Positions 30,554 to 36,773 of a stretch of 64,000 nucleotides of DNA are shown here, piece after piece. The stretch's first letter is position 1. Every line of letters begins with the position of its first letter. The notes beneath the pieces were generated by a model. It searched no databases and was not told where the DNA came from. It saw nothing but the letters and a program-made list of their open reading frames with translations. Both the position numbers and the translations under genes were made by a program. Source of the stretch: Kosmotoga olearia TBF 19.5.1 (GTDB lineage Bacteria; Thermotogota; Thermotogae; Petrotogales; Kosmotogaceae); NCBI RefSeq assembly GCF_000023325.1, contig NC_012785.1, positions 1 to 64,000 on the forward strand, given 5' to 3'.

Positions 30554-30581
30554 AAAAAAGGGGCTTGAAAGCCCCTTTTTT
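30554..30581. terminator. Bidirectional intrinsic terminator
   Basis: AAAAAAGGGGCT, a four-base loop, then AGCCCCTTTTTT: a GC-rich stem flanked by A and T tracts between the convergent HDAC-like and BamA-like genes. It can stop transcription from both sides. Confidence 0.9.
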
Positions 30582-30599: not shown

Positions 30600-33110
30600 T
30601 CAAAAGACCGGTCCTATTCCGAAGAAGAAGGTTCCGGAATAATCTGTGCTTTCTCCGTACACCGAATTCCAGCCCCAACCCACTCTGAACAGCCCTATCA
30701 TGGGTAGACTTATTTCAAGGCTTACACCTGCATCCCAGATAGTCTTATTTCCAATCAGATCAGCAATGTTGGCACCTTCACGATAGTAAACAAGATCTCC
30801 AAAAAGAACAAAATCGAGAGGCATGCTTCCACGGATTTCAACGAGGGGAACTCTCAACTGCAGAGAAGCTGCTGTCACACCATAAACATCATTTCCCACC
30901 ACCAAACCACCGTTTTTCACTCTAAGATAGGTACCGGGTGAAAGCAGATAAGTTTCAAAGACCTTGTTATATTCATTAAAGGGGAACAATTGATCTGTTC
31001 GCGCTCTAAAACCAAGGACCGGATTCCCCAATCCTTTGGCTATCGGTAAAGGTCCCAGATCGATGAACTTTTTGAATTCAAACATTACTCCTGCAAAAGG
31101 TTCATTGCCAAAGATTCCCCGGGCGTACAGCCTTGCAGAGAATTCTGTTCCGTTTTTCGGTCTCAGAAGATCATCCCGGGTACTGTAACTGTAGGAAAGA
31201 GAGGTATAAAGACCGTAGAATGTGTTTGCCGTCTGACTGGTTGCAACTTCAGTTGAAGTAGCGGTTCTCAATTCCGTAGCGGTTTCTGTATAAATATTTA
31301 TATACTCAAATCCCGCACTTGTTCTGATTTTTTCAGCTGCGGACAGGTTGTAAGTTGGAGCCAATGCTAAATCAATACGATATTCTCTTTCTTCCGTAAT
31401 GGTTGCTTCAATTGTATCTGGTGCCGTTTCGGTGGCTTCTTCAGTGCTCTTTCCTGTGGAACGAAGCTTCATGCTCAAACCAACATCCCAATTCGAGGCG
31501 AAAATTTTTGGAACGATATATGAAAATGATAGGTCGTACGTTGGTGAACTGGTTTCAGTAATAGTCGCCCCGGTGGTTTCATCTGTGCTTATCGTTGTTT
31601 TGCTTCCACCAACGGGAAAGTTCACGTTCGCCTTTAGAGAAATATCCTGACCGTACCCAAAGGGGTTCAGGAACCCGACGTCCAGGTTAAGCATGAGGCC
31701 ATCCTGCCAACCTCCGCCACCCATTATCTTTCCGTTTTTATCCTTTTCATCAAGAACAATTTTGACGTCGAGCGTCTCACCATCTGAAGGAATTGGATTT
31801 ATAACAACAGAGTCGAAATATCCCGTGGAATTGAGAAATGCATATGTGTTCTGGTAATCTTTTAAGCTTAGTACCTCACCTTTTTTGAGCACGATCTTGT
31901 CCTGGATCAGGTAATCTCTGGTCTTGTGCTCACCCACGTATTCGACATTTATATTTCCTACCTTCAACTCTGTTATCTCAAAAGTCAGGGATCCAAGATT
32001 CTCATCAATTCTCACCTGTTGTTTTGTAAAGGGATAGCCCTCTTTTGAATAAACTTCCTGGATTGCCTGAAGCGCCTTTGCTATTTTCTCAGAATCTATT
32101 ACCTCTCCTTCCCTGATGCCCACAGCATTTAAAAGTGTGAGGCTTGAAACGTGCTCATTTCCGGTGAAAAAGATCGTTTTGACTTCCATCGGTCTGGCAA
32201 TGTACGAAGCGGGCTTGAATGAAAGAGTGATGATTTTTGCCTGGCCTTCTACGCCTTCAGGTAGCTCCACCTCTCTTGCGGTTTTTAAGGCATTGCTGTA
32301 TGCGAAAGCCAGCGCCCGATAGACCTTTTCTAATCCCCAGGACCCTTCGGGATTAACATAGTAAGTACTGAAAATCGAACGCACAGCGGAAGCTATATCG
32401 CTTGCTTTAGGAACATAAGAACTCTCCTTCATAAACAGTCTGATTATCCCGGGAGCTTCGTAATAACTCTTGAAAGTTTTAAGCTTCGCGGTGTTCTTGA
32501 GTTCTTCCAGTGCCCTTTCAGATAAAGGTGCTTCGATTTCTACATCCCAGAGATAATAAGGCTTGATCTTGAAAATAATCTTTATATGGTCTTCAACATT
32601 CCCGCGCATAATATCTTTCTTATCCGGTTCCGTATCCCATTCGATATCAAAAAACGCTTCAGGGTATCCAAGAGATTTCAGAGTTTCGGTTAGGCCCTCA
32701 ACGGATCTCGGAATCTCGTAAATAATACGTGTTGGATTTAAAGGTTTTCCATCTTCTATCGTCACTCCTGAAGCCAGCAACGTGTCTTTGTCTGCGATTT
32801 TTGGACCAACGAAGGTTATCTCAACATCAGCACCGGGAAATTCCTCGACGGTTATGCTAAGAAGGCCAGAGGCCTCATCAAAAGAAAAATCCACGTTTTT
32901 GAAATAACCGGAATCGGTAAGAGACCCCAGGGAAGCTTCGAGCGTTTCGCGGTCAATCTCCGTTCTCAGTTTTATTCCCAACAGTTCTCTTATCTCGGAA
33001 TCCTTGAGAATGGTGTTCCCTGTAATCTCGATTTTCTTGACCACAATTCCAGACATCACAATGACTGAAAAGATCAAAAAACTCAATAAAAGAACCGAAA
33101 CTTTCCTCAT
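30600..33110 (-). CDS. BamA/Omp85-type outer-membrane assembly protein
   Basis: Signal peptide (about 1-20, RKVSVLLLSFLIFSVIVMS), several POTRA domains (about 21-450; for example VKKIEITGNTIL and KTIFFTGNEHV), and a C-terminal 16-strand-type barrel (about 480-836) with alternating hydrophobic residues and a terminal Phe (GIGPVF). It should insert barrel proteins into the outer sheath (toga). At 836 aa it is typical of BamA. ATG behind GGGAGG. It is the last gene of the long leftward run. POTRA number was not counted exactly. Confidence 0.9.
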   Translation of the reverse strand: MRKVSVLLLSFLIFSVIVMSGIVVKKIEITGNTILKDSEIRELLGIKLRTEIDRETLEASLGSLTDSGYFKNVDFSFDEASGLLSITVEEFPGADVEITFVGPKIADKDTLLASGVTIEDGKPLNPTRIIYEIPRSVEGLTETLKSLGYPEAFFDIEWDTEPDKKDIMRGNVEDHIKIIFKIKPYYLWDVEIEAPLSERALEELKNTAKLKTFKSYYEAPGIIRLFMKESSYVPKASDIASAVRSIFSTYYVNPEGSWGLEKVYRALAFAYSNALKTAREVELPEGVEGQAKIITLSFKPASYIARPMEVKTIFFTGNEHVSSLTLLNAVGIREGEVIDSEKIAKALQAIQEVYSKEGYPFTKQQVRIDENLGSLTFEITELKVGNINVEYVGEHKTRDYLIQDKIVLKKGEVLSLKDYQNTYAFLNSTGYFDSVVINPIPSDGETLDVKIVLDEKDKNGKIMGGGGWQDGLMLNLDVGFLNPFGYGQDISLKANVNFPVGGSKTTISTDETTGATITETSSPTYDLSFSYIVPKIFASNWDVGLSMKLRSTGKSTEEATETAPDTIEATITEEREYRIDLALAPTYNLSAAEKIRTSAGFEYINIYTETATELRTATSTEVATSQTANTFYGLYTSLSYSYSTRDDLLRPKNGTEFSARLYARGIFGNEPFAGVMFEFKKFIDLGPLPIAKGLGNPVLGFRARTDQLFPFNEYNKVFETYLLSPGTYLRVKNGGLVVGNDVYGVTAASLQLRVPLVEIRGSMPLDFVLFGDLVYYREGANIADLIGNKTIWDAGVSLEISLPMIGLFRVGWGWNSVYGESTDYSGTFFFGIGPVF

Positions 33111-33114
33111 CTTC

Positions 33115-33663
33115 TTAACCTCCCAATGAATTTTCCATCATATTTAAAAGTTCCATTATTTTTTTCATCTTCATAGGATTGGAGTAGAAATCATCACCGA
33201 GAATTTTTTTTAGTTCTTCAGTGGTGAGACTGTATCCATTTTGCCCCTTTACCCGTACTATTTGCCAATTAACACCGGCCTCCATCGTTATCGCTGAAAA
33301 GATCGCGGACGCTAAATCTCCCACAGGCTGACAGTCTATATTTGACAGATTGAATGTTGCGCTCACTTTTGTGCCCACACCCGGTTTGGATTGAATAGAA
33401 AAACTTCCTCCGGTAGATTCCGAAGCAAACTTGAGCATAGGAAGACCCAAACCGAATTTCACTTTCTTTTTCTTTTCAGTATAGAAAGGATCGAGAATTT
33501 CTTTTAACTTTTCCTCTGGAATTCCCTTTCCATTGTCTTCAACCACAAACGAAAAGCGCTCCCCGGGTATTTCTTCTATCGACAACTTAATCTGTGAAGC
33601 ACCCGCATCAACCGCGTTTTGGCAGATATCCAGTATATGATCTGCTATGGTTCTCAAACCCAA
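33115..33663 (-). CDS. Stand-alone HATPase_c protein
   Basis: Only an ATP-binding GHKL domain: N box ICQNAVDAGAS (about 14-24), G1 VEDNGKGIPEEKL, G2 KFGLGLPML. There is no HisKA or sensor domain in its 182 residues, so it resembles anti-sigma-type or hydrogenase-associated ATPases rather than a sensor kinase. It overlaps the PHP gene by ten bases and belongs to the five-gene HATPase/PHP/DRTGG/CBS module. The target is unknown. Confidence 0.88.
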   Translation of the reverse strand: MGLRTIADHILDICQNAVDAGASQIKLSIEEIPGERFSFVVEDNGKGIPEEKLKEILDPFYTEKKKKVKFGLGLPMLKFASESTGGSFSIQSKPGVGTKVSATFNLSNIDCQPVGDLASAIFSAITMEAGVNWQIVRVKGQNGYSLTTEELKKILGDDFYSNPMKMKKIMELLNMMENSLGG

Positions 33664-34388
33664 TTTATTCTCACCCTCGCTTCATAATCTATCAATAAGC
33701 TTTTCTTGAAGGCCTCAAACGTTCGACGCTCACATTCTACGACCATGGAAGGCTTCAACATGTTCAAAGAATGGGCGTCCGAGGAATGTAAACAATTTAT
33801 TGCTACATTCGAAGGGAACTCATGAAGGGTCTTTTTAAAAGCAACTTCTACCAGAACCGGATTCGCCACAGGTGGAATGAATCCAAGTTGATACAAAATA
33901 CCCATTCTTCTCTCAGCGTGCGCAAAAGCAAAGATGCCCTTCCTTTTAAGTATTTCCTGAATAGCTTCATGGATCTTCACATTCGCCGGTTGGCCAAGCC
34001 ATTTTTCTTCCATTCCAATGAATTCATCATTCTCATTTACAAAAAGCTGATACCCAAATTTTTCTGGATCAATGGATATGTCAGGAATCTTATCATACAA
34101 CCAGCTGGAATAATCTTCAGCGGTTTCAGCATCCGGAAAATATGCAAGAAGATGTACGTCTTCGGCGGTATGAACCTCTATACCGGGTATCACCTTGATC
34201 CCTTGAAGAGTAAGGGCCTTCATAAAGGTCCGAACATTACCGGCGGAATTGTGATCGGTTACGGCTATCCAATCTATGCCCTTCTCCGTTAAAACCTTAG
34301 CAACCGCCCTGGGTGTCATGGTGATATCCGCACAGGGCGAAAGGCACGTATGTACGTGAAAATCACAGGAAAATTTCTTAAGCCCCAA
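33654..34388 (-). CDS. PHP-domain phosphoesterase
   Basis: Metal-dependent hydrolase with the PHP motifs DFHVHTCLSPCADI (His ligands near the start), VTDHNSAGNV, GIEVHTAEDVHL and LHSSDAH. The TTG at 34388 is preferred because GAGGTGA precedes it by five bases; GTG 34397 is the alternative. About 244 aa. Its substrate is unknown; within this module, next to HATPase and DRTGG proteins, it is likely regulatory or in cofactor maintenance (inference). Confidence 0.88.
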   Translation of the reverse strand: MGLKKFSCDFHVHTCLSPCADITMTPRAVAKVLTEKGIDWIAVTDHNSAGNVRTFMKALTLQGIKVIPGIEVHTAEDVHLLAYFPDAETAEDYSSWLYDKIPDISIDPEKFGYQLFVNENDEFIGMEEKWLGQPANVKIHEAIQEILKRKGIFAFAHAERRMGILYQLGFIPPVANPVLVEVAFKKTLHEFPSNVAINCLHSSDAHSLNMLKPSMVVECERRTFEAFKKSLLIDYEARVRINWV

Positions 34389-34393
34389 ACCTA

Positions 34394-34726
34394 TCACCTC
34401 AGACCTGCTTCAAAAAGTTTCATGCAGGTCTTAAAAGAGTTTTCGCTGGAGGACAGGAGCGCTATAGCGTTTTCTTTTGCTTTCTCTATGGTTTCATCTT
34501 CGTATGTCAACCCGTTACACAATACGATGGCTTTGACCCCCACAATGGAAGCTACAGCTACGATATTCATATGAGATTGTACCGTTAACCAGATGGAATC
34601 ACCTGGCGCGTTCCCCATAACATCACTCAGAAGATCACCTACATAACCATTGGAGATTTCCACATCAAGGTTTTCGGCTTCAATCACTTTAAGATTGCAT
34701 TTATCAATAATCTCTCTCAAAAGCAA
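34394..34726 (-). CDS. DRTGG-domain-like protein (short form)
   Basis: 110 residues with the fold signature of the small DRTGG family: NGYVGDLLSDVMGNAPGDSIWLTVQSH followed in two halves by VAVASIVGVKAIVLCNG. TTG start behind a GGGAGGGG site. A second, related copy lies three genes upstream (35719-36084). Such proteins accompany CBS and HATPase proteins near iron-only hydrogenases in other anaerobes (from memory). Molecular role unknown. Confidence 0.78.
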   Translation of the reverse strand: MLLREIIDKCNLKVIEAENLDVEISNGYVGDLLSDVMGNAPGDSIWLTVQSHMNIVAVASIVGVKAIVLCNGLTYEDETIEKAKENAIALLSSSENSFKTCMKLFEAGLR

Positions 34727-34765
34727 AGAAGACCCCTCCCCTCTAAATCAAACCGATAATAGCGA

Positions 34766-35722
34766 TTATTTTTTGTTCATGTAAAATATCATTTCTACAA
34801 CGACTCCTTTTCCCACTTCTGACATGACCACCATCTTATCAGAATAGCGCTTCATATTTGGGAGTCCCATTCCAGCTCCAAATCCTAATTCCCTGACATG
34901 ATCAGTGGCGGTGGAATATCCTTCCTTCATGGCCATTTCAATATTTTCAATACCTTTGCCGTGATCTTCAACTCGCACCCTGATGGCATCATCGTCTATC
35001 CAGCAGTAGATGAAGCCGTCGCTTCCACTGTGAATGACCACATTGACCTCAGCCTCATAGGTGGCAATCGATACCTTGCGCACAAGATTCTCATCTTTTA
35101 TCTTTCCCATTAAGAAGCGTTTCAATCTTGCAGCTCCCATTCCTGCAAGGTCCACGTCGGTGTAATTTATCGCAAAGAAGAAATCCGCTTTCTTTTTTTC
35201 GACGTAATCGCCTGTAATTAACGAGCGTTCAAACCATTTATTAGTATTTTCCAATACTCTGCTTCTACGCTCGTCATGAACGTATATGATCCTGAATCGT
35301 TCAAGGATCGCGCTGATTATATCCTTTTTGGTTACTAAACCCACGAGTTTCCCGGATTCATCGACAACGGGAAAACGCCCATAACGATACCTGTCGAATT
35401 TTTGCAGTATCGATTCAAGTTCTTCATCTGGTTTGAGAACGATCACGTCTTTTGTCATGTGCTCCCCTATTTTGTCCCTGATGTGATCCTTCTCAAGAGC
35501 AACAATGATATCCTCAATACTCACGATTCCCAGGAGCTTATTGTCGCGATTTACAATAGGGATGCCGGAGATTTTTCGGAGCTTCATCAATTCTTTGGCT
35601 TGCCAGAGGGTTCTTTCTGGAGTCATTGTGATTATGTTCTTGGTCATTATTTCGCCAGCTTTGATATGCGAAAAAAACTTTCTGAGTTTTTCAATTAGTT
35701 TATCAACGCCTTCGTCGCTCAA
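34766..35722 (-). CDS. CBS-pair protein fused to anti-sigma-like HATPase
   Basis: Two CBS domains (about 15-75 and 85-140; GIPIVNRDNKLLGIVSIED and RFPVVDESGKLVGLVTKKD) should sense an adenine nucleotide. A linker leads to a GHKL ATPase of the RsbW/SpoIIAB type (about 205-318): N-box-like YEAEVNVVIHS, VEDHGKGIENI and GFGAGMGLPNMKRY. TTG start, overlapping the upstream DRTGG gene by four bases. The fusion suggests energy-state sensing coupled to a kinase or anti-sigma activity; that is inference. Confidence 0.87.
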   Translation of the reverse strand: MSDEGVDKLIEKLRKFFSHIKAGEIMTKNIITMTPERTLWQAKELMKLRKISGIPIVNRDNKLLGIVSIEDIIVALEKDHIRDKIGEHMTKDVIVLKPDEELESILQKFDRYRYGRFPVVDESGKLVGLVTKKDIISAILERFRIIYVHDERRSRVLENTNKWFERSLITGDYVEKKKADFFFAINYTDVDLAGMGAARLKRFLMGKIKDENLVRKVSIATYEAEVNVVIHSGSDGFIYCWIDDDAIRVRVEDHGKGIENIEMAMKEGYSTATDHVRELGFGAGMGLPNMKRYSDKMVVMSEVGKGVVVEMIFYMNKK

Positions 35723-36084
35723 AACCCATTCACTTCCTCTAACGCATCTTTGAGGTTGAGGTCATAGAGTTTTCCACATGCCTTGTACATTGAAATCCGT
35801 GCGTGCAATAGAGGGATTTCCAGATCCTTTGCAAGATTGACGGTGGATTCTGGCACCTCCCTTTTTCTAACAATCAGTACGCCGGCTGCACCCACAACCG
35901 AGGCAGTCCTAACACACTGTGGAGAGTTGAGGCCGGTTACCAGTAGCATATTAGGGGTACCGAAGGCAAGCACATCACTCATTAGATCAGCAGCTCCTAT
36001 GTATTCGATCTGCCGTTTATCTAAATCCCCGGTATCATTCAGAATTTCGCAGCCCAAAAACTTGCAAATTTCCTCAAGAGTCAT
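35719..36084 (-). CDS. DRTGG-domain-like protein
   Basis: 121 residues (ATG at 36084, six bases after GGAGGG; ATG 36090 abuts the site). It has the same layout as the copy at 34394: an N-terminal helix (LEEICKFLGCEIL), GAADLMSDVLAFGTPNMLLVTG, then SVVGAAGVLIVRKREV. It overlaps thyX by four bases and the CBS gene by four, so it is the first gene of the five-gene module. No catalytic motif is seen. Confidence 0.78.
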   Translation of the reverse strand: MTLEEICKFLGCEILNDTGDLDKRQIEYIGAADLMSDVLAFGTPNMLLVTGLNSPQCVRTASVVGAAGVLIVRKREVPESTVNLAKDLEIPLLHARISMYKACGKLYDLNLKDALEEVNGF

Positions 36085-36773
36085 AAGCATCCCTCCGTTT
36101 TCAAAAGATCGCCGGTATACGCAAAATTAAGGAAGGCTTCATAGGTAACCGGACATTTACTTTTGAATATCTTTGCAACTGCGAGAGCATATTGCTGCAT
36201 TTCATACTGAGCATGGGAATCCGCTCTCAGATTCAAAAAATTCATCATGCTCCTCGCGTTTATTGTCCAGTAACACTCGGTGTACATCGATGTTGGCAAC
36301 ACGATTCTGGCGAGTTCCCGTGCCACACCCATTTCCAAAAGCCTTTTGTAAGCCTGATAAGTTTTTTCGATGGTTTCTTCAATAAGTCTTATCCCCTCTG
36401 AATTCAGATCGTCATCATCGACAAACACTGACCCCTGCCGATTGACTTTATCGGGTGTTCTGATCCTTTCGGGGATGTACCACTCATCGCTGAATTCAGT
36501 ATATCTTCCGCTACGCTCATTTATCGAAGCAATTCGATGCCTCACCAGCTGGCGCATCACAAAGATGGGCAGTTTTATGTGAAACTTAAAGATGATATGT
36601 TCAAAAGGAGAGTGGTGTCCGTGCTCCATGAGATAAAAAATCAGTTTTTTATCACGTTCGGGGGTTGTTAATCCTTTCCCATAACTGACTCTCGCAGCCT
36701 GAACAGCAGAAAAGTCATCCCCCATTACCTCTACAAGTCTGATAAAACCCTTTTCAAGTACCTTTATCTCCAT
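36081..36773 (-). CDS. thyX: Flavin-dependent thymidylate synthase ThyX
   Basis: Makes dTMP from dUMP using FADH2 and methylene-tetrahydrofolate. The ThyX motif RHRx7S is present as Arg78-His79-Arg80 to Ser88 (RHRIASINERS), with GHHSPFEH upstream for flavin binding. Length 230 aa. ATG behind GAGGAGG. In this run it lies a few genes from trmFO, another folate/flavin-dependent methyl donor enzyme. Confidence 0.96.
   Translation of the reverse strand: MEIKVLEKGFIRLVEVMGDDFSAVQAARVSYGKGLTTPERDKKLIFYLMEHGHHSPFEHIIFKFHIKLPIFVMRQLVRHRIASINERSGRYTEFSDEWYIPERIRTPDKVNRQGSVFVDDDDLNSEGIRLIEETIEKTYQAYKRLLEMGVARELARIVLPTSMYTECYWTINARSMMNFLNLRADSHAQYEMQQYALAVAKIFKSKCPVTYEAFLNFAYTGDLLKTEGCL

Follow-up and report, generated by a model that had tools for sequence, protein, structure and literature searches.

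The window analysed here comprises positions 1-64,000 of contig NC_012785.1 (GCF_000023325.1) of Kosmotoga olearia TBF 19.5.1, the genome of which consists of one contig of 2,302,126 bases. Five consecutive genes of the window, referred to below as the module, encode a free-standing GHKL ATPase (HATP), a PHP-family protein, a protein with a CBS pair and a HATPase domain (CBS-HATPase) and two DRTGG-domain proteins (Table 1). An earlier note, made from the sequence alone, had described HATPase, PHP, DRTGG, CBS-HATPase and DRTGG genes that overlap or nearly touch. This is confirmed by the open reading frames (ORFs), Pfam and a structural model: the overlaps measure 4-10 nucleotides (nt) and there is one 39-nt gap (spacing along the minus strand, from HATP to the first DRTGG gene, -10, -4, +39 and -4 nt). 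The end of bamA lies 4 nt from the HATP gene, thyX overlaps the first DRTGG gene (35719-36090) by 10 nt, and a purine-rich stretch is found 5' of every module gene start. The five genes belong to a thyX-to-bamA operon. The hairpin 3' of bamA is, from its consensus match, the probable end of this operon; terminator-like sites in the hairpin region are no commoner than in its shuffled sequences. The 12 kb examined around the module encode no iron-sulfur (Fe-S) protein, in agreement with the note. The CBS-HATPase and PHP genes are present in single copy in the genome, and the DRTGG family is matched only by the two proteins of the window. A chance arrangement is ruled out by the recurrence of the module order in other families of the Thermotogota (see below).

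Table 1. The module of K. olearia and its surroundings (aa, amino acids)
Feature	Position in the window	Strand	Evidence and remarks
HATP, free-standing GHKL ATPase, 182 aa	33115..33663	-	ORF list; Pfam HATPase_c
PHP-family metallophosphoesterase, 247 aa	33654..34397	-	ORF list; Pfam PHP
Second DRTGG-domain protein, 110 aa	34394..34726	-	Sequence profile match below the Pfam cut-off
CBS pair fused to SpoIIAB/RsbW-like HATPase kinase domain, 318 aa	34766..35722	-	Pfam 2xCBS and HATPase_c
First DRTGG-domain protein, 123 aa	35719..36090	-	Sub-cut-off profile match; model supports DRTGG fold
thyX, upstream neighbour (context, not part of the module)	36081..36773	-	Pfam Thy1; kept in much of Thermotogota
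bamA/Omp85, downstream neighbour (context)	30600..33110	-	Pfam POTRA/Omp85; kept in much of Thermotogota
Terminator-like hairpin 3' of bamA, 12 pairs, T tail	30554..30581	-	Consensus match

HATP consists of the HATPase domain and a short C-terminal extension only. It has no DHp/His domain, that is, no dimerisation domain bearing the phospho-accepting histidine of two-component histidine kinases, and no response regulator recurs among the neighbour clusters present in at least five loci. Its conserved residues are N16, DNGKG (43-47), GLG (71-73) and D110, and its model is closest, with modest scores, to MutL-type GHKL proteins. The metal motifs of the PHP protein are intact (HxH 14/16, H49, E74, H160, D207/H209), and the ligands (HxH, DH, E, H, DxH) are 98-100% conserved (n=83), as befits a metallophosphoesterase. 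The motif HxHTCLSPCAD contains a cysteine (C22), six residues past the second histidine, that is invariant in 83 relatives. We take its position to be that of a metal ligand in Escherichia coli YcdX and other PHP enzymes; from the sequence, a role in redox sensitivity is possible.

The kinase half of the CBS-HATPase contains D253-G-K-G, and in a set of 112 relatives its E223, N227, D253 and GFGAGMGL (280-287) are kept by 96% or more. This half has the GHKL fold with the E-x3-N and DxGxG motifs of Ser/Thr kinases of the SpoIIAB/RsbW type. The match to TIGR01925 of NCBIfam (4e-15, 55.9 bits) is below the family cut-off of 135 bits, and SpoIIAB (PDB 1til) is among the few solved structures matched by this half. 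Both DRTGG proteins score below the Pfam cut-off of 25.2 bits (24.4 bits for the second protein, 34394-34726, and 23.8 bits for the other). The fold of the first DRTGG protein (35719-36090) is settled by a confident AlphaFold model (pLDDT 95.6), for which the best PDB match is 2ioj (AF1212, DRTGG; TM 0.76) and which also matches the CBS-DRTGG region of the Clostridium perfringens pyrophosphatase. A D-x-x-S motif is common to both DRTGG proteins in every sequence examined; D35 and S38 of the first are invariant in 43/43 aligned relatives, and D31 and S34 of the second in 85 relatives. A sequence search of solved structures gave no close relative of HATP, of PHP or of either DRTGG protein.

Gene neighbourhoods were surveyed in 103 Thermotogota genomes. 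The CBS-HATPase is encoded in 81 of these, the PHP protein in 82 and both in 80. Several order types occur. The order bamA-HATP-PHP-DRTGG-CBS-HATPase-DRTGG-thyX is found in families f1, f2 and f8, and the sequence from f4 ends before thyX; in f9 the module genes are scattered. In f7 the genes DRTGG-CBS-HATPase-DRTGG-PHP-HATP-hydC-hydD-hydB directly adjoin each other (G008, G012, G015; also L116, L117), the module lying directly 5' of hydC-hydD-hydB in three genera of this one family; in G012, hydA too lies no more than about 3 kb from the module. The HydB proteins linked in f7 are approximately 70% identical to HydB of K. olearia. In G090 the best match to K. olearia HydB is a gene at 8.7-10.5 kb (73%) and not the operon copy at 1,439 kb (53%). 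The order seen in f7 was considered as ancestral in Thermotogota and rejected: f7 is not at the base of the CBS-HATPase tree, so that the tree does not tell a module leaving the hyd genes from one joining them.

HydA is encoded in 96 and HydB in 102 of the 103 genomes, and HydB is present in 81/81 module-bearing genomes. The co-occurrence with hydA that the note had proposed as a check did not emerge, as hydA is present in 77/81 Thermotogota with the module and 19/22 without it (p=0.17). Strict co-occurrence with hydA is uninformative as a test in this phylum, because nearly all of its genomes have hydA.

Nine module-less Petrotoga-like genomes (genera g6, g7, g11) have a hydB that lacks the first 110 or so residues, the N-terminal Fe-S region. 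The operons L216 and L217 (G048, G036) are compact (hydC-hydD-hydB-hydA), and related module-bearing genera keep full-length HydB. This shortening is confined to one clade and represents one event at most. A tie between module loss and loss of the HydB N-terminus was discarded, as genera g32, g33 and g36 are without the module yet have full HydB.

The note had described the module as without a hydrogenase. This holds for the neighbourhood but not for the genome, in which two [FeFe]-hydrogenase domains are encoded. hydA is located at 192.6 kb; hydC, the gene for a small 2Fe-2S protein (hydD-like), hydB and a second NuoE/NuoF pair are located at 202.2-207.1 kb. hydCDB is thus about 168 kb from the module, outside the distance of 10 kb or less that was taken as linkage. 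HydB of K. olearia (BfuB, G000:C1:203131-204927) is full length (599 aa), with N- and C-terminal Fe-S regions. A second cluster at 1,919-1,922 kb (L009:5829-9424) encodes a sensory-type [FeFe] hydrogenase (1,921 kb), PAS, a SpoIIE phosphatase (1,919-1,921 kb) and small Fe-S proteins. No second copy of the module, which the note had named as a finding that would speak against its idea, adjoins any K. olearia hydrogenase.

A scan of a wider collection kept 80 loci, 77 of them outside Thermotogota, with 10 kb flanks. There are no Firmicutes among the 80; Firmicutes and Synergistota lie outside the survey. Many loci are from metagenome-assembled genomes and many contigs are short. Counts are uncorrected for shared ancestry, the breadth across phyla being the main safeguard. 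Outside Thermotogota, 51 of the 77 loci, which represent about 15 phyla, encode HydB or HydC within 10 kb of the module, against a chance expectation estimated at about 2% (from 20-kb windows and a few such genes in every 3 Mb). Of the sampled genomes with an unlinked module, 25/26 encode HydB elsewhere. In Spirochaetota a close HydB is present in 53/55 module genomes and 78/241 others (Fisher 8e-20, shared ancestry uncorrected). In other phyla HATP is frequently inside the enzyme operon, in the order hydC-HATP-hydD-hydB-A. In a subset of Spirochaetota (L153-L195) DRTGG-CBS-HATPase-DRTGG-PHP often occurs without HATP nearby, and others keep HATP in the hydC-hydB operon. This suggests HATP as the part of the module that makes contact with the enzyme. 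A gene for a Rex-like redox-sensing repressor lies directly 5' of the module (DRTGG1/CBS-HATPase) in L193, L151, L171, L173 and L185, and near it in three more loci; in four of the five Rex-preceded loci the hydABC operon is transcribed divergently. The Rex-like gene fits a redox context.

The A subunit of the linked enzyme could be identified in 43 loci, of which 41 were assigned to a class: [FeFe] in 7, molybdopterin/NuoG-like in 19, HdrA-like in 13 and GltD plus molybdopterin in 2. The claim that these families accompany [FeFe] hydrogenase genes is therefore correct in part: HydABC-type genes do adjoin the module, but the [FeFe] partner is a minority. The partner types seen beside the module are [FeFe] and [NiFe] hydrogenase, formate dehydrogenase, HdrA-like and Nfn/GltD-like. 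L134 and L191 each encode a full formate dehydrogenase alpha subunit that passes the curated NCBIfam cut-off. A [NiFe] hydrogenase large-subunit gene is present in 17 loci, and most of the whole ones keep the nickel-binding cysteine pairs at both ends; those of L122, L137 and L145 fail the search pattern for the first pair. The [FeFe] hydrogenase domain is absent from 24 of the 35 genomes that have the module and a non-[FeFe] A subunit. In nine of these 24 the locus itself encodes a [NiFe] large subunit (the search for [NiFe] covered the loci), and the claim that the module occurs in genomes without any hydrogenase is unsupported. The range of partners is that of the Bfu family, which is defined by its BfuBC core, as described by Schut et al. 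(2022, PMC9304861).

The catalytic partner varies while BfuBC is constant, and the module is therefore tied to the electron-bifurcating BfuBC (HydBC) core and not to hydrogenase as such. We consider it very probable that the module is coupled to the BfuBC family. That the five genes form an accessory control module, with the switch proposed below, for electron-bifurcating oxidoreductases built on this core is the reading we favour, with moderate confidence. The alternative offered by the note, that the module serves another redox enzyme, fits the formate dehydrogenase, HdrA-like and Nfn-like partners. In K. olearia the client is likely the [FeFe] hydrogenase of HydABC type whose genes lie at 192.6 and 202.2-207.1 kb.

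The kinase and phosphoesterase motifs are intact and a serine is invariant in both DRTGG proteins, which suggests a phospho-switch that senses nucleotides, a mechanism that is read from sequence motifs. The CBS pair, perhaps with the DRTGG proteins, would read adenine nucleotides or a related cofactor and would gate the attached SpoIIAB/RsbW-like kinase domain. The latter would phosphorylate the invariant serine of both DRTGG proteins, and the PHP protein would remove the phosphate or degrade the nucleotide signal. HATP would pass the state to the BfuBC core, adjusting its activity or assembly. This kinase-acceptor-phosphatase scheme is put forward tentatively. More doubtful is the full proposal of a new kind of phospho-signalling module, in which a SpoIIAB-type kinase gated by CBS would phosphorylate serines of DRTGG and not STAS proteins, PHP would reset the switch, and the system would sense energy or redox cofactors and control bifurcating enzymes generally, whatever their third substrate.

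Several observations weigh against the control module and its switch. HydB is encoded in many module-less genomes (78 of the 241 Spirochaetota of this kind; Petrotoga-like genera), and such enzymes therefore do not require the module. In Fervidobacteriaceae the PHP gene is apart from the CBS-HATPase gene, and the module need not be a single operon. D35-x-x-S38 stands at a helix start in the DRTGG model, a position at which the serine may have a structural role as a cap and not be an acceptor. The link between module and enzyme in K. olearia is one of homology, the association counts ignore shared ancestry, the breadth of phyla aside, and no experiment on the module was found in the literature searched.

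The module could instead serve to assemble or mature the BfuBC core, with both GHKL ATPases acting in flavin or Fe-S insertion as chaperones and not as kinases. The HATP gene lies between hydC and hydB in many loci, and the HATP model is as similar to MutL-type GHKL proteins as to histidine kinases, or more so. Moreover, HydD, HydP and HisK, the extra genes of the A. mobile Bfu operon, are outside the purified enzyme and are assumed to serve 'maturation and/or regulation' by Feng et al. (2022, PMC8880783); Schut et al. (2022, PMC9304861) likewise place hisK and hydD outside the holoenzyme. Yet BfuBC genes occur without the module in many genomes, including the hydCDBA operons of Petrotoga-like bacteria, the N-box Glu/Asn of the CBS-HATPase matches that of SpoIIAB-type Ser/Thr kinases, and CBS and DRTGG are typical sensor domains. 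We regard maturation as unlikely, if the foremost of the other explanations. A regulator specific to hydrogenase, acting at a distance on HydABC of K. olearia as the note had envisaged, is viable here because hydA, hydCDB and the sensory hydrogenase are all encoded elsewhere in the genome, and the module adjoins hydCB in f7, with hydA close by in G012. As a general rule it is largely refuted by the formate dehydrogenase (L134, L191), HdrA-like and Nfn-like partners beside the module, most of them in genomes without an [FeFe] domain, and within Thermotogota the presence of the module is not tied to that of hydA. It may still hold in K. olearia, and overall we judge it quite improbable.

Partner switching between the SpoIIE phosphatase at 1,919-1,921 kb and the CBS-HATPase kinase, as one H2-sensing circuit, is favoured by the joining of PAS, SpoIIE and sensory-type hydrogenase in the K. 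olearia cluster and by the presence of the CBS-HATPase in 46/47 Thermotogota with this SpoIIE versus 35/56 without it (p 5e-6). These counts, however, follow clades, and SpoIIE is beside the module in 1/80 other loci. An obligate partnership is rejected, as 35 genomes have the CBS-HATPase kinase without this phosphatase; the circuit as such is highly improbable. Least credible of all is service to the operon neighbours, that is, to thymidylate synthesis by thyX or outer-membrane assembly by bamA. The bamA-module-thyX order is kept in several Thermotogota families, but outside this phylum the module adjoins HydBC genes, with ThyX in 0/77 loci and BamA in 1/77.

Most Thermotogota have the module, as do many anaerobes of other groups. 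It accompanies enzymes that divide electron pairs between NAD and ferredoxin, many of which, though not all, are hydrogenases. How an anaerobe apportions its electrons to H2, formate, NADH and ferredoxin is set by these HydABC/Bfu electron-bifurcating enzymes. A common companion of five genes that gene order allows to be followed through about 15 phyla, whatever the catalytic subunit, provides defined proteins for the question of how bifurcation is regulated. Should the switch be true, it would be a new use of DRTGG domains, with relevance to the H2 yield of fermenters. By name alone, HisK of A. mobile may presumably be HATP, and HydP may be PHP. A literature search that covered few subscription journals found no description of the five-gene unit, of its DRTGG and CBS-HATPase members, of the spread over Bfu types or of the separation from the enzyme genes, and no paper joining DRTGG with PHP; DRTGG and hydrogenase came up together in one paper only, a survey of Desulfovibrio mutants.

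Compared with known systems, the module resembles the Bfu operons of PMC9304861 and PMC8880783 in that accessory genes adjoin HydABC-type genes; the available text of these papers contains no DRTGG or CBS-HATPase, five-gene unit, unlinked copies or Bfu-type spread. With the SpoIIAB/RsbW anti-sigma kinases it shares the GHKL kinase domain, the E-x3-N N-box, DxGxG and the glycine lid. It differs from these in the CBS pair fused to the kinase and in the DRTGG proteins, which take the place of the STAS antagonist in the gene order; neither a STAS antagonist nor a sigma factor gene travels with the module. The CBS-DRTGG region of the C. perfringens family II pyrophosphatase (PDB 3l2b/3l31) is likewise a regulatory unit of a CBS pair and DRTGG, and the fold of the first DRTGG protein matches it with TM 0.7, whereas in the module the domains are on separate proteins, accompanied by a kinase and with D-x-x-S kept. 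The sensory [FeFe] hydrogenase clusters of Group C, which include PAS and SpoIIE and of which K. olearia has one at 1,919-1,922 kb, are similar as signalling genes that accompany bifurcating hydrogenases, but they consist of other gene families at another locus and are found in 47/103 Thermotogota, versus 81/103 for the module.

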